Shown: one piece after another, positions 19,448-64,000 of the stretch
How the letters are laid out: every line of letters starts with the position of its first letter
Numbering within the stretch: the stretch's first letter is position 1
Assembly: GCF_003851125.1 (NCBI RefSeq)
Contig: NZ_BGOW01000002.1
Location: 186,001 to 250,000, forward strand
Reading direction: 5' to 3'
DNA from: Sulfuriferula multivorans
GTDB taxonomy: Bacteria; Pseudomonadota; Gammaproteobacteria; Burkholderiales; Sulfuriferulaceae
DNA length: 64,000 nucleotides
The notes under the pieces: model-generated
Databases searched by the model: none
Told to the model about the DNA's origin: nothing
What the model saw: the letters and a program-made list of their open reading frames with translations, nothing else
Program-made: the position numbers and the translations under genes

Positions 19448-21811
19448 TTATGCACGCTCCACGGAGACTTCACCCAGCATCGCGCCCAACGTGGCAGTCA
19501 GCGGGTGCGCGGCAGCTAGCCGCACACAATGATCGGGCAGGTGGTCATCTGCCAGGGCTCGCACCACAGCTCGCGCTTCACCCTGACGCACCGTCACCAT
19601 AGCGCCATCGGCAAGACCCAGGCGCGCCAGCAAGGCGGAATGCATGGATGCATTAGGCAATGCTGCGGCGCGCGTGCTATGCAGCGAAGCAGCACGACGC
19701 ACAATTGCATCGGCCTGGTACATCGGCACTTCGCCCACACGAGTCAATGTGTCAGTAATGGCAGCCGATTGCAGTACCGGTCCGGACAAACTATTGTTGA
19801 GCACGCCTGCAGCCAGACCATTACTGCCCAGCGCATCCTGACGCACGGCTTCACTGGTGTCGTAGTCGAAACCTTTTACGCCAAGCATGGTGCCCAGCAC
19901 ACGCAACACCTTCCATGCCGGGCGTGTTTCACCTAACGGTTTGACCGTGCCGTTGAAGCTTTGCACGCGACCTTCAGTGCTGATGAAAGTACCTGAAGTT
20001 TCACTGAACGGTGCAATGGGCAACAACACATCTGCGTATTCCAGCGCGCTGTGTTTGTAAGCGCTCATCGCCACCACCATGTCAGCCGACTGTAATGCGT
20101 GCATGGCTGCGGCCGGATCATTGCAATCCAGCTCCGGTTCAGCACCCAGCAACAGATAAGCCTTGCGCGGCGTCGCCATCATGGCGGCCGCATTCATGCC
20201 TGCCTTCAGACCGGATTTGGATGGCACCGCGCCGGCAATGTAAGCGCCCACGCTATTGGCTGACTCACCCAGACAACCGAAATTTGCACCAGCAAGCCGT
20301 GCGATCACTTCGGCCAGTGAGTGCAGGTCGGCATACTGAGGATGGTGCTGCGCCAAATTGCCGAGGAATACCGCACGCCGCTCGGCGCCTGTCAGGCTGG
20401 CCGCGATGGCCCGTGCCGCAGCGCCGACCGTTACATCCGCCAACACCGCCTTGATGGCTGCAGGCAATTCGGTCTGCGTGGCCTCAGCCAATGCCAGTGC
20501 AATTTGCGCAAGGGTATTGACCATGGCTTGCGGAGCGACAATGGCTTTATTGGCAAGCTTGGTGAGCAGATCATCGTCCACCGGATTCACCAGATTGAGT
20601 TGCGCACCGTGCTTCACGGCCTGACGCAGACGATGCGCGAGCAGGGGATGGTCATTGCGCAATGTGCTGCCTATCACCAGCACCCGCTGCAGCTTGCTGA
20701 TATCTGCAACCGCCATGCCCAGCCAGGGTGCGCCTTGCAGGCTGGCATCCAGCCTGAAATCGGCCTGCGCCAGACGGCTATCCACGTTACCGGTACCCAG
20801 GCCGCGCATCAGCTTTTGCAGCAGGTAGAGTTCTTCAACGGTCTGGTGCGACGTAGCCAGCGCACCGATGCTGTCGGCACCGTGTTGCTCGCGAATCTGC
20901 TTGAGGCCGTTGGCGACATATTCCAGTGCCGTCTGCCAATCCACTTCCAGCCATTTCCCATCCTGCTTGAGCATCGGACGGCTAAGGCGCTGTTCGGAAT
21001 TCAGGCCTTCGTATGCGAAGCGATCCTTGTCGGACAGCCAGCATTCGTTAACCGCCTCGTTTTCCAATGGCAGCACCCGCATTACGCGGCTATCCTTGAC
21101 TTGTACAATCAGATTGCTGCCCAGGCCATCGTGCGGGCTCACCGATTTGCGCCGCGACAGCTCCCAGCTGCGCGCGGTATAACGGAACGGTTTGCTGGTC
21201 AACGCGCCCACCGGGCACAGGTCGATGATGTTGCCGGACAGTTCGGAATCGATGGTCTTGCTGATGAACGGCATGATCTCGGAATGTTCGCCGCGACCCA
21301 CCTGCCCCATCTCCATGATGCCGGCAATTTCCTGGCCGAAACGCACGCAGCGCGTGCAGTGGATGCAGCGCGTCATGTCGGTGGCAACCAGCGGACCCAG
21401 ATCTTTTTCCTTCACCACGCGTTTGGCTTCCTGGTAGCGCGAACTGCTGCCGCCGTAGCCGACCGCCAGATCCTGCAAGCTGCATTCGCCGCCCTGGTCA
21501 CAAATCGGGCAATCCAGCGGATGGTTGATCAGCAGGAATTCCATCACGCCCTTCTGCGCCTTGACGGCGTAGTCGGATTTGGTGAATACCTTCATCCCGT
21601 CGGTGATCGGTGTGGCGCAGGCCGGCAGCGGCTTGGCGGCTTTTTCCACCTGCACCAGGCACATGCGGCAGTTGGCCGCAATGGAGAGTTTCTTGTGATA
21701 GCAGAAATGCGGAATATAAATCCCGATCTGCGCTGCGGCTTCCATGATGGTGCCGCCCGCCGTCATCTGTATCTTGTTGCCGTCAATTTCGATCTCTAGC
21801 ATCTGCTTCAC
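19448..21811 (-). CDS. nuoG: NADH-quinone oxidoreductase subunit G
   Basis: This 787-residue iron-sulphur subunit has an N-terminal 2Fe-2S ferredoxin domain (C37, C48, C51, C65). It also has the His/Cys-ligated 4Fe-4S site ([14 protein letters not shown], about 97-110), a CIHCTRC ferredoxin-type site near 150, and a molybdopterin-oxidoreductase-like domain from about 220 onward, which is structural in complex I. The last 100 residues resemble a degenerate dinucleotide-binding C-terminus. It carries electrons from NuoF/E towards NuoI/B. It lies 15 bp after nuoF. Confidence 0.95.
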
Positions 21812-21826
21812 CTAAACCTGCTTCAC

Positions 21827-23101
21827 CTAAACCATGCATTTGCCATGTTCGATATGGTGCTCGAACTCATGGCGATAGTGTTTGAGCATTGCCTGCACCG
21901 GCATCGCTGCAGCATCTCCCAGACCACAGATGGTGCGGCCGCCGATGTTGTGAGCGACATCGCTCAACAAATCGAGGTCTTCCGGCCTGCCTTGACCATG
22001 CTCGATGCGGTGAATCACCCGATATAGCCAGCCGGTACCCTCGCGGCACGGGGTACACTGTCCGCAGGATTCTTCAAAATAAAAGTAGGATAAGCGTTCC
22101 AGCGCTTTCACCATGCACACCGTCTCGTCCATGATGATGACTGAGCCTGCACCCAGCGCCGAACCGGCTTTGGCGATGGAGTCGTAATCCATGGTGCACT
22201 GCATCATGATCTCGGCGGGCAGCACCGGGGTGGAAGAACCACCGGGAATGCAGGCCTTGAAAGTGTGTCCATCCCGAATGCCGCCTGCCATTTCCAGCAA
22301 TTCGGCAAAAGGCGTCCCCATCGGCACTTCAAAATTTCCGGGGCGATTCACGTGCCCGGATACCGAGAAAAGTTTGGTGCCGCCGTTATTGGGCTTGCCC
22401 AACTCCAGAAATTTCTGCCCCCCTTCTCGTATGATGTAGGGGATGCTGGCGAAAGTTTCCGTGTTGTTGATCGTGGTGGGCTTGCCGTACAGGCCGAAAC
22501 TGGCCGGAAATGGCGGCTTGAAACGCGGCTGACCCTTCTTGCCCTCGATGGATTCGAGCAGTGCCGTTTCCTCGCCGCAAATATAGGCGCCGTAGCCATG
22601 GTGGTTGAACAGGTGAAAACTGAAGTCCGTGCCGCAAATGTTGTCACCCAAAAAGCCTGCTGCCTTCGCTTCTTCAACCGCGGCTTCCATGCGTTCGTAG
22701 GTTTCCCATATTTCGCCGTGGATATAGTTGTAACCGCGTCTGGTACCCAGGGTATAGGCGGCAATCGCCATCCCTTCAATCAGCGCATGCGGATTCAACT
22801 GCATGATGTCGCGATCCTTGAAGGTACCGGGTTCGCCCTCGTCGGAATTGCACACCAGGTATTTGTCGCCATCAAAATGGCGTGGCATGAAGCTCCACTT
22901 CAGACCGGTCGGGAAGCCTGCGCCGCCCCGGCCACGCAATGCGGACTTTTTGACCTCGGCAATGATGGTCTCAGCCGAAGTTTTTTCGCTCAGAATTTTG
23001 CGCAATGCTGCATAACCGCCATTGGCTACATAGGTAGACAGCTTCCACGATTCGGGAAGATGTACTGTATTGAATATGACTTCTCCGCCTTTGATCACCA
23101 T
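21827..23101 (-). CDS. nuoF: NADH-quinone oxidoreductase subunit F (NADH/FMN site)
   Basis: This 424-residue subunit oxidises NADH. It has the glycine-rich nucleotide site [10 protein letters not shown] (57-66), the FMN-binding stretch [13 protein letters not shown] (85-97), and the 4Fe-4S (N3) ligands in [10 protein letters not shown] near 350, plus a fourth Cys in TICGLGDA. The start codon is one base after the nuoE stop. Confidence 0.96.
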
Positions 23102-60657: not shown

Positions 60658-61122
60658 TTATCTTTGCTGCGGGCCTGTCTGCATCCCGGCGGGCACAGCC
60701 TGCCAACGCGTCTGACATTGCGCTACATAAGGATAGTAACCACGTGGATCGCTGCAGTAATACCAGTATTGTGCAGGCCCCTGTGGTGGCATTATTTCAC
60801 TTACCGGGGGCTGATAGGGATCCGGGTAGGGATACACCGGCGCGGGGTAAAAATACCAGATCCCACCCACAATCCACCACCACCCCCCGCGTCCGCCGTG
60901 ACGGCCATGATACCAATGGCCACCACGCCAAAGCACCATGTCATGTTCGCGGAATTGACGAATATCGCCTCGGTAACCGTCCCACCGGTCCGACTTTTGG
61001 TCGCGATGGTGATCCCGGTCATTGAATCCACGGCCATAGCCATTCTCGTCCGCACTGCTTCTGGTTATTGCCGATGCTAGAAGCAACGCGCTGATGAACG
61101 TGGAAAGGATGATTTTTTGCAT
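60658..61122 (-). CDS. Secreted protein with YYC-GYYPYV-C motif
   Basis: This 154-residue protein has a signal peptide (about 1-24, cleaved near SSA). A His/Asp/Arg/Gly-rich region (30-80) and a Pro/Tyr-rich linker follow. The C-terminal motif is YWYYCSDPRGYYPYVAQC then WQAVP. The same motif ends the protein at 61727-62128, so they are related at the C-terminus. The two Cys residues may form a disulphide. The function is unknown; its place in the Cpx-linked cluster suggests an envelope role. About 195 bp separate it from mdtA, with no clear feature. Confidence 0.7.
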   Translation of the reverse strand: MQKIILSTFISALLLASAITRSSADENGYGRGFNDRDHHRDQKSDRWDGYRGDIRQFREHDMVLWRGGHWYHGRHGGRGGWWWIVGGIWYFYPAPVYPYPDPYQPPVSEIMPPQGPAQYWYYCSDPRGYYPYVAQCQTRWQAVPAGMQTGPQQR

Positions 61123-61726: not shown

Positions 61727-62128
61727 TCATCTCCCATCCACAGGAGATGATGGTTGCGGTGCCACCGCTTGCCATCTGCCAGAACACTGTTTCACATAGG
61801 GGTAATAGCCCTGCGGATTGGCGCAGTAATACCAGAAGTTGGATTGCTGAGAGGGAGCATCGGTATCCTGACCGTCTCCCTGCTCAATATATACAGGGGG
61901 AGAGGCCGGCGCCGTCACGACAGGCGGCGGGTAATAATAAGGTGGTGCCGGATAATAGTAGGGTCCAGGATAATACGGGTAATACCCGGGATACGCCCAC
62001 ATCGGGCCAAGATTAATTCCGACACCAACATGACCACGCCAATGACCACGATCCGCCATGGACACACTGCTCGCGCTGACCCCCAGCGCCACGAAAAGAA
62101 CAACTAACGTTACTTTAAGCTTGCTCAT
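61727..62128 (-). CDS. Secreted Tyr/Pro-rich protein with YYC-GYYPYV-C motif
   Basis: This 133-residue protein starts MSKLKVTLVVLFVALGVSA and has a signal peptide of about 25 residues. The Tyr/Pro repeat (YPGYYPYYPGPYYYPAPPYYY pattern, in shorter stretches) is followed by FWYYCANPQGYYPYVKQC and WQAVA, matching the paralogue at 60658-61122. AAGGAG precedes the ATG at 62128; the frame extends 26 codons without support. Function is unknown. Confidence 0.75.
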   Translation of the reverse strand: MSKLKVTLVVLFVALGVSASSVSMADRGHWRGHVGVGINLGPMWAYPGYYPYYPGPYYYPAPPYYYPPPVVTAPASPPVYIEQGDGQDTDAPSQQSNFWYYCANPQGYYPYVKQCSGRWQAVAPQPSSPVDGR

Positions 62129-62219
62129 GAAAATCTCCTTAAATGCCTGAACGCCTGGACGACCAAGCTGCACGGAGCTTCGCCCACTGTGCAATTCATA
62201 GATCACATTCCCTGCTTTT

Positions 62220-62783
62220 TTATAGCACGCTTCTATGCACTTCGATTAATAAGGACAGGTGCTCCGCCGCCACCTCGGCAGGCGTGGCACCGGATGATTC
62301 AGCACTCTGTTTATTTCCGGGTTGATGACCACGGTTTTCACGCGCCCGCAGCAATTTCTTGCGCTGCTCCTCGGTCAAAATGTCGTTTATTTCGCTGCGC
62401 ATCTGGGCGCGCAACACAATCATGTCGGCGATGGTTTTCCCTTGCGCATCCGCCAACGCCCGCACCTGATCTGCGTCTGAATTACCCATCGCCGAGAGCG
62501 CCATGAGCTGTTGCCGGTTCTCGATCTGCGCGTCACGCAATGCGCGCATTTGCGGTCGATGTTGTTCGACAATGGCGCGAACAGCCGTGCGCTGGTCCTT
62601 GGTCAGACTCAGGCGCTTGCCGATGCGATAAATCTGCGACTCGCGTGTGTGTTGATAAGCATGATGACAACCTCCCGCCTGCCCTTTTCCACCGGCCAGC
62701 TGATTGGCATATACGGAAGTCGCTTCGAGCATTCCCGCCAGCAGGGTCGTCATGAGAATGGTTAGCGTGTCTTTTTTCATCAT
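62220..62783 (-). CDS. Spy/CpxP-family periplasmic stress protein
   Basis: This 187-residue protein has a signal peptide (about 1-25) and a helical domain with two LTxxQ-type motifs (SLTKDQRTAV near 62; ILTEEQRKKL near 136), the hallmark of CpxP, Spy and CnrX-like proteins. CpxP inhibits CpxA, and Spy is a periplasmic chaperone; which role applies here is uncertain. It is divergent from cpxR and has CpxR-like boxes upstream. The ATG at 62783 or 62780 follows AAAGGACGCA. Confidence 0.85.
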   Translation of the reverse strand: MMKKDTLTILMTTLLAGMLEATSVYANQLAGGKGQAGGCHHAYQHTRESQIYRIGKRLSLTKDQRTAVRAIVEQHRPQMRALRDAQIENRQQLMALSAMGNSDADQVRALADAQGKTIADMIVLRAQMRSEINDILTEEQRKKLLRARENRGHQPGNKQSAESSGATPAEVAAEHLSLLIEVHRSVL

Positions 62784-62921
62784 TGCGTCCTTTCCTGTCG
62801 CATTAAGAAACATTCCCTTTTGATACGCGATGCAACCTTGATCTGGCGCGGCGCAATTCAGTGCCAGCTATTTGTAAGCGTAAGAAAATTTCCGTAAAAG
62901 CATGGTTCGGGCTGCATACCC
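62711..62921. repeat. Tandem duplication, copy 1 (5' end of spy-like gene plus upstream DNA)
   Basis: Copy 1 of a roughly 211-bp head-to-tail repeat; the other copy is at about 62922-63132. It spans the first about 24 codons of the spy-like gene and its control region. Shared landmarks offset by exactly 211 bases include the paired ATGs (62783/62994), GCATTAAGAAA (62800/63011) and the GTAAG of the CpxR-like box (62874/63085). Confidence 0.8.
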
Positions 62922-62994
62922 TTCGTGGGTCGTTTCCAATATCTTCGCTAGCAGGGATCGTCCTTAGAATGATTGAAGTGCCCTTTTTCATCAT
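62803..62994 (-). pseudogene. Truncated spy-like gene relic
   Basis: This 63-codon frame starts MMKKGTSIILRTIPAS, resembling the start of the spy-like protein MMKKDTLTILMTTLLAG. After about 24 codons it runs through the downstream copy's control region with no protein-like character. It is the 5' end of a duplicated gene whose remainder is missing. Confidence 0.65.
62874..62898 (+). promoter_or_regulatory. CpxR-like box array, copy 1
   Basis: Three 5-base half-sites, GTAAG-N5-GAAAA-N5-GTAAA, are 10 bp apart, about 90-115 bp upstream of the spy-like ATG. The CpxR consensus is GTAAA-N5-GTAAA; the middle half-site here is degenerate. Confidence 0.55.
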
Positions 62995-63132
62995 TGCATC
63001 CTTTCATGTCGCATTAAGAAATATGCCTCGTTGATACATGCTGTAACCTTAACCTTGCGTGGTGTCATTCAGCGCCAGCTGTTTGTAAGCGTAGGTAAAT
63101 TCTTGTAAAGAGAAGATTCGATCTGGATGCCG
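62922..63132. repeat. Tandem duplication, copy 2 (relic plus upstream DNA)
   Basis: Copy 2 of the 211-bp repeat, next to cpxR. It contains the truncated relic start and the better-preserved CpxR-like box array. Confidence 0.8.
63085..63109 (+). promoter_or_regulatory. CpxR-like box array, copy 2
   Basis: GTAAG-N5-GTAAA-N5-GTAAA, with 10-bp spacing, contains a perfect CpxR consensus pair at 63095-63109. It lies about 82 bp before cpxR and upstream of the relic on the other strand. It could serve autoregulation of cpxRA. Confidence 0.65.
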
Positions 63133-63190
63133 ATGCCCGCCCTATGGCACCATAGCGTCATGATTTTTAACGCCTCCTCGGAAGACCTGA

Positions 63191-63886
63191 ATGATCCGCA
63201 TCCTGCTCGCTGATGATGACGTCGATCTGTGTGAAATGCTGGCGGAATACCTCACCGCCGAAGGGTTCTCAATTACGTTTGTCCACGATGGTGAAACGGC
63301 GCTGCGCCGGGCACGCGAAGATGTTTTTGATCTTGTGGTGCTGGATGTCATGATGCCGCGCAAAGGCGGTTTCGACGTGTTGCGCGAACTCCGCACTGAC
63401 TCACTTACACCGGTGCTCATGCTGACTGCGCGTGGTGAAGATGTGGACAGCATTGTTGGTCTGGAACTGGGCGCAGATGACTATCTTGCCAAACCATGCA
63501 ATCCGCGGGTACTGACTGCGCGCATCCGCGCTGTGTTGCGCCGTGTCAAGCAGCGACCCGATGAAGACATCAATGAGACCCCGCAAGTATTAGTTCAGGC
63601 TGACCTGACACTACACATGGGTGCCCGCAGGGTAACCTGCATAGAGCGTGATATCGCTTTGACCAGCACCGAATTCAGCGTGCTGCAAGTATTGTTACTG
63701 GAAGCGGGACATATCGTATCCAAACAGACGCTTTCCGAGCAGGCCTTAGGACGGCGCATGACCCGTTTTGATCGCAGTCTTGATATGCACGTAAGCAACC
63801 TGCGCCATAAGTTAGGAGCGCTTGCAGATGGCGATGAGCGGATCAAAACCATTCGTGGCGTGGGTTATCAGTACGTGATCAAGTGA
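63191..63886 (+). CDS. cpxR: OmpR-family response regulator, CpxR-like
   Basis: This 231-residue regulator has a receiver domain with acidic pocket DDD (8-10), phosphoacceptor D52 in VVLDVMMP and conserved Lys in ADDYLAKP, followed by a winged-helix DNA-binding domain (about 130-230, RSLDMHVSNLRHKLG). GGAAGA lies upstream of the ATG. It is called CpxR-like from its neighbours (Spy/CpxP gene, GTAAA boxes) and the LAKPCNPR stretch; another OmpR-family member cannot be excluded. Confidence 0.85.
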   Translation: MIRILLADDDVDLCEMLAEYLTAEGFSITFVHDGETALRRAREDVFDLVVLDVMMPRKGGFDVLRELRTDSLTPVLMLTARGEDVDSIVGLELGADDYLAKPCNPRVLTARIRAVLRRVKQRPDEDINETPQVLVQADLTLHMGARRVTCIERDIALTSTEFSVLQVLLLEAGHIVSKQTLSEQALGRRMTRFDRSLDMHVSNLRHKLGALADGDERIKTIRGVGYQYVIK

Positions 63887-63892
63887 GATAGC

Positions 63893-64000
63893 ATGCATCG
63901 GCTTTTCTGGAAACTTTTTCTGTCCTTTTGGGCTACGCTGATCCTGTTTTCTGTGGTGGTCATGCTGTCCGTCTCCATCTACATTGACCACCTGCACGGG
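63893..64000 (+). CDS. cpxA: Sensor histidine kinase, CpxA-like, partial
   Basis: The first 36 codons of a frame that runs off the window begin MHRLFWKLFLSFWATLILFS and contain one transmembrane helix entering a periplasmic domain. The start lies six bases after the cpxR stop, so it is the expected partner kinase. Catalytic domains are outside the window. Confidence 0.75.
   Translation, partial: MHRLFWKLFLSFWATLILFSVVVMLSVSIYIDHLHG

Follow-up and report, generated by a model that had tools for sequence, protein, structure and literature searches.

In Escherichia coli, cpxP and cpxRA are arranged divergently. In the available parts of two reports, the CpxR motif is given as GTAAA-N5-6-GTAAA (PMC9600279) and as GTAAA-N4-8-GTAAA, the latter reported at Pseudomonas cpxP orthologues (PMC5063474). 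The second of these also describes a species-specific CpxR site at mexAB-oprM of Pseudomonas aeruginosa (PMC5063474), and an excerpt of another has the E. coli mlaFEDCB operon activated by MarA (PMC10768439). Promoter capture by tandem duplication and promoter propagation are covered in part of PMC11111574, which cites Matus-Garcia (2012) and Oren (2014).

Here we describe a related control region in a window of 64,000 nucleotides from Sulfuriferula multivorans. It resembles the cpxP-cpxRA control region in having an LTxxQ periplasmic protein gene beside cpxR and box dimers at the spacing given in the published excerpts (PMC9600279, PMC5063474). Unlike that region, it is tandem-duplicated, and in each copy the box forms a triplet. 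We propose, with a probability of about two in three, that a control region once shared by the chaperone gene and cpxRA underwent a lineage-specific tandem duplication, and that a third copy lies before the mla genes.

A duplicated unit in the chaperone-cpxR spacer

The gene on the chaperone side (62220-62783, minus strand) encodes a protein of 187 amino acids from an MMKK start at 62783. It belongs to Pfam LTXXQ (40.9 bits for a 197-residue form with an upstream start, against a gathering score of 24.3). The best NCBIfam model is Spy, but the protein falls below the equivalog cutoffs of both Spy (47 versus 174 bits) and CpxP (27 versus 160 bits), and is therefore named only spy/cpxP-like. It is the one chaperone match in this genome at E values up to 0.001. 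On the other side, a cpxR-like response regulator gene (63191-63886, plus strand; Pfam Response_reg and Trans_reg_C) has CpxR as its top NCBIfam model, at 228 bits and under the 341-bit equivalog cutoff. It is followed by a cpxA-like histidine kinase gene with HAMP, HisKA and HATPase_c domains; only the start of this gene is in the window (63893-64000, plus strand), and it runs on past the end as part of a 453-residue open reading frame (L086). The LTXXQ-family gene and the regulator gene are divergently arranged, as in a cpxP/spy-cpxRA locus. Nearby on the minus strand, two small proteins (60658-61122 and 61727-62206) share, by eye, a C-terminal motif like WYYC..P.GYYPYV..C...WQAV and have no Pfam or NCBIfam matches. 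Elsewhere in the window there is a perfect short tandem repeat of period 15 (21803-21833).

The spacer between the divergent genes contains two copies of one unit, copy A (62707-62920) and copy B (62914-63131), which abut head to tail and have bases 62914-62920 in common. Automatic repeat detection returned a direct repeat with a spacing of 211 (62744-62920 versus 62955-63131, 76%). In local alignment, 160 of 214 aligned positions of A and B are identical (75%), with two gaps and a score of 200. Separating the stretches at 62912/62913 gave a score of 194, whereas the highest of 500 dinucleotide shuffles scored 57. The A/B duplication was not among the repeats returned by Tandem Repeats Finder. 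Read toward the chaperone gene, each copy consists of a box array, a leader, a ribosome-binding region, two ATGs and first codons, and the array segment has the highest A/B identity of the four segments compared (36/43).

Thus, a direct repeat and a gapped alignment far above shuffles confirm, at the level of sequence, the 211-bp tandem duplication that the first-pass annotation had placed in this spacer; self-alignment shifts its left end by a few bases. The landmarks said to be offset by 211 hold with one exception. GCATTAAGAAA occurs at 62800 and 63011, and the minus-strand double ATG (MMKK) is found in both copies, but at the end landmark, CTGCATACC in copy A and CTGGATGCC in copy B, the ATG is present only in B. 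The orphan chaperone 5′ end that had been noted is also there. In copy A the first codons continue into the full chaperone gene; copy B has the start codons and first codons as a frameshifted relic (62955-62994, minus strand; MMKKGTSIILR...). Translation gives MMKKDTLTILMTTLLAGMLE for A, MMKKGTSIILRTIPASEDIG for B and MMKKDTLTLLITTLLAGMLE for the related genome G003, and in B the frameshift removes the signal-peptide hydrophobic core. From the relic ATG, a frame of 63 codons is open (62803-62994, minus strand) with its stop 19 nt short of the chaperone ATG. This frame was considered as a possible leader peptide with coupling to the chaperone; as 6% of shuffled leader regions are open over 51 codons, it was left as probably a chance frame.

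The same spacer was compared across 83 loci, namely the regulator upstream regions of the best 80 of at least 592 relatives together with those of the present genome (G000), G003 and G014; in some of the 83 the match starts a few residues into the protein, which displaces the cut slightly from the start codon. Scored for ungapped self-repeats, the present spacer reaches 54 and the other 82 at most 12; none of these 82 has such a repeat. G003 belongs to the same genus (regulator 83% and chaperone 64% identical) and is the sole close single-copy comparison, from an assembly that is 80% complete and in about 330 contigs. It has one copy in this spacer, with the array GTAAG-N5-GTAAA-N5-GTAAA. The other 16 searched genomes of the genus gave no chaperone match at E values up to 0.001. 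Given the single copy in G003 and the lack of a comparable repeat in the other spacers, the duplication is most simply lineage-specific, the loss of one copy in G003 being a possible alternative.

CpxR-like arrays and promoter geometry

Triplets of GTAAA-N5-GTAAA-type half-sites occur in A, in B and in G003. Array A (62874-62898, plus strand) reads GTAAG-N5-GAAAA-N5-GTAAA, one mismatch from the search pattern, and array B (63085-63109, plus strand) matches it exactly as GTAAG-N5-GTAAA-N5-GTAAA. Array A is the weaker match, in its middle half-site, GAAAA. The three half-sites per copy at 10-bp spacing described in the first-pass annotation are thus present, and its total of six is right as a count, with one of the six, in A, degraded. 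Across the 3.6-Mb genome, array B is the only exact match to the triplet pattern, and A and B are the only matches with up to one mismatch. At up to two mismatches the box pattern has 7 matches (five beyond A and B) versus 21 for a reversed control pattern, so that weak matches are without meaning.

Among the 83 loci, the dimer GTAAR-N5-GTAAR (at least 9 of 10 positions matching, up to 400 nt upstream of the regulator) is found on the regulator strand in 49 (single-base shuffles predict 3.6) and on the other strand in 10. With gaps of 3, 4, 6, 7 and 8 bases, the counts were 6, 8, 22, 4 and 3 loci, respectively, and 34 spacers are below the 9/10 threshold. A divergent open reading frame with LTxxQ starts within 500 nt in 31 of the 83 loci, 30 of which also have the dimer; a single array shared by divergent genes is therefore a common layout. 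The present locus is the only one of those 31 in which the LTxxQ frame starts more than 300 nt away (377). The region is likely Cpx-controlled, with CpxR binding predicted from this conservation of the motif.

In A the array lies 91 nt from the start of the chaperone gene (99 nt for the G003 array), and in B it lies 82 nt from the start of cpxR (83 nt for the G003 array). The crossed distances are 302 nt (B to chaperone) and 293 nt (A to cpxR). A conserved cpxR-side element, TATGGCACCAT (63143-63153, plus strand), is a possible core promoter region; with the consensus TRTGGCAYCAT, it is found 33 nt downstream of the array in B, in G003 and in copy C, the copy before mlaF described below. It is absent from the 70 nt following array A because the tandem unit stops before it. 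Thus, only B keeps the cpxR promoter layout, and A is the chaperone-side copy. A sigma-70 promoter scan of 62700-63250 found none, and core promoters are accordingly placed by conservation alone. The geometry suggests that each gene has its own array, as the first-pass annotation supposed. The layout, at approximately single-copy distances, agrees with this, but the two copies are not equivalent.

Weak terminator-like hairpins occur on the plus strand at 62850-62865 and 63060-63077, at matching places just before the arrays in A and B (2 versus 0.6 expected from shuffles). Elsewhere in the genome, downstream of cpxA, one exact GTAAA-N5-GTAAA dimer (L201:1338-1362; G000:C2:252137-252161) precedes both hrcA and a low-complexity open reading frame divergent from it. 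It is a possible further CpxR target, from a search in which the control had more matches.

A third copy upstream of mlaF

A weak match on another contig of the same genome (C27:20908-20957, E about 7e-5) belongs to a third copy, C. Bases 238 to 27 upstream of mlaF match 62960-63169 at 149 of 207 positions, which takes in copy B and, past the end of the tandem unit, some of the cpxR side. The alignment of C with B scores 151, and the maximum of 500 shuffles is 54. The array in C, GTATG-N4-GTAAA-N5-GTAAA, stops 88 nt short of the mlaF start and is directed toward this gene; the cpxR-type side faces mlaF, with the same 33-nt geometry. Identity between C and B is 19/36 in the chaperone coding segment, 39/71 in the leader, 37/42 in the array, and 15/22 and 28/41 on the cpxR side, a pattern that would follow from retention of mainly the array and the half facing mlaF. 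The chaperone-side half is still recognisable (score 45, versus a maximum of 37 in 500 shuffles). Both the A/B site and the C site are internal to their contigs, and the three copies are well supported by these alignments.

The genes downstream of mlaF match MlaE, MlaD and MlaC of the phospholipid-transport operon. Of 15 relatives checked, three (G001, G003 and G016) share the gene that precedes mlaF here (protein identity 85, 58 and 59%, respectively), and in them it is separated from mlaF by 58 nt without an insert; it was not found before mlaF in the other 12. In the present genome this gap is 299 nt, and the beginning of the native spacer, including TATAAAAT, still stands ahead of the insert. 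The 330-nt regions before mlaF in G001, G003 and G016, aligned to B as a control, scored 23, 23 and 30; of 300 shuffles, 91, 90 and 9 did as well, and we see no clear homology to B there. None of the 15 relatives has a box dimer of at least 9/10 in the 300 nt upstream of mlaF (best, 8). A profile of A, B, C and the G003 copy, with 128 candidates scored per genome, found no further strong copy in 18 genomes of the genus. The four strong matches are the source sequences of the profile, and the next E values are 0.03 and 0.29.

Through copy C, the mla operon is probably under CpxR. The available parts of PMC11510100, PMC10768439, PMC9600279 and PMC2731931 contain no report of CpxR control of mla, which is not proof of its absence; words beginning with mla occur in neither PMC9600279 nor PMC2731931. 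The arrangement is like that of mexAB-oprM, as described in the excerpt of PMC5063474, in that a transport operon has a CpxR-like box in one lineage only. It is unlike that case in that the box here is part of a promoter region of approximately 210 bp homologous to the cpxR promoter, whereas the origin of the mexAB-oprM box is not given in the available part of the same paper (PMC5063474).

Proposed origin of the copies and growth of the regulon

In the history that we propose, one triple CpxR-like array would have served both divergent genes, as in G003. The duplicated unit would have extended from within the first codons of the chaperone gene to just beyond the box array. Afterwards, copy A would have stood before the chaperone gene and copy B before cpxRA, each near the original distance, and B may also give rise to an additional, longer transcript of the chaperone gene. 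A further copy of the region, its cpxR side retained, would have come to lie before the mla operon and would probably have placed it under CpxR control. From sequence and layout we infer CpxR binding, the separate control of the chaperone gene and cpxRA, Cpx control of mla, and the order of these events.

Comparison of the copies with G003 bears on an alternative in which all regulation passes through B, and A is a drifting leftover of a neutral accident, without effect on control. In alignments from the ribosome-binding region, A is further from G003 than B (72/115 versus 82/116 identical), and its array is the weaker one. In the short coding segment A is the closer of the two (28/40 versus 25/40), and a relative-rate test of A versus B was not significant (19 versus 12 changes, p = 0.28). 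Only the array of A, however, is near the original distance from the chaperone gene, at 91 nt rather than the 302 nt of B, and the segment best conserved between the copies is the one that holds the array; we regard a functionless copy A as rather doubtful. Phylogeny gives conflicting branching: FastTree pairs A with B (support 0.11) and IQ-TREE pairs B with G003 (bootstrap 54). A point against the history that we propose is that the ribosome-binding region and start codons of B are still near those of G003, contrary to plain relic decay.

The relic in B could instead be what is left of a whole second gene, if the chaperone gene and its promoter had been duplicated together and the gene copy nearer to cpxR had later lost most of its length by deletion, so that a 5′ stub and its promoter stayed behind. 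The start codons and approximately 25 first codons in B, now frameshifted, would fit such a stub, and A and B have diverged for long enough to allow the later loss. Yet A ends at 62920 and B begins at 62914, and a single event of approximately 211 bp suffices without a second deletion. The genome, moreover, has just the one chaperone match, and we judge a lost whole gene unlikely. Three copies at two sites might also suggest a small mobile promoter element spreading in the genome, with A, B and C as its copies. Against this, the 18 genomes of the genus gave strong scores only for the three copies here and the one in G003, and no inverted repeats of 12 bases or more were reported in 62300-63500. 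A mobile promoter or MITE would have many dispersed copies; this reading was rejected mainly on copy number, and we regard it as very improbable.

We therefore return to tandem duplication of a shared control region with a further copy before mla. Whether this region was copied twice in one lineage, once in tandem so that a shared operator was split and each gene received an array of its own, and a second time to a remote position where mla was recruited, is in our view an evenly balanced question. Such a history would be like the promoter capture outlined in the available part of PMC11111574, in that a promoter copied by duplication ends up before another gene. It would be unlike it in that the promoter is that of a stress regulator and the new target a conserved envelope operon rather than a silent foreign gene (PMC11111574).

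Isolated binding sites are the usual basis for arguments on how regulons acquire members. In the present case, the single-copy state in G003, the tandem and dispersed states, and the insert-free sites of relatives are all readable from sequence, which makes the splitting of a shared promoter and the recruitment of a conserved envelope operon directly testable. If the proposed history is true, the Cpx regulon would have grown by duplicating its own autoregulatory promoter and not by point mutations making new boxes. This suggests promoter copying as a way for stress circuits to grow.
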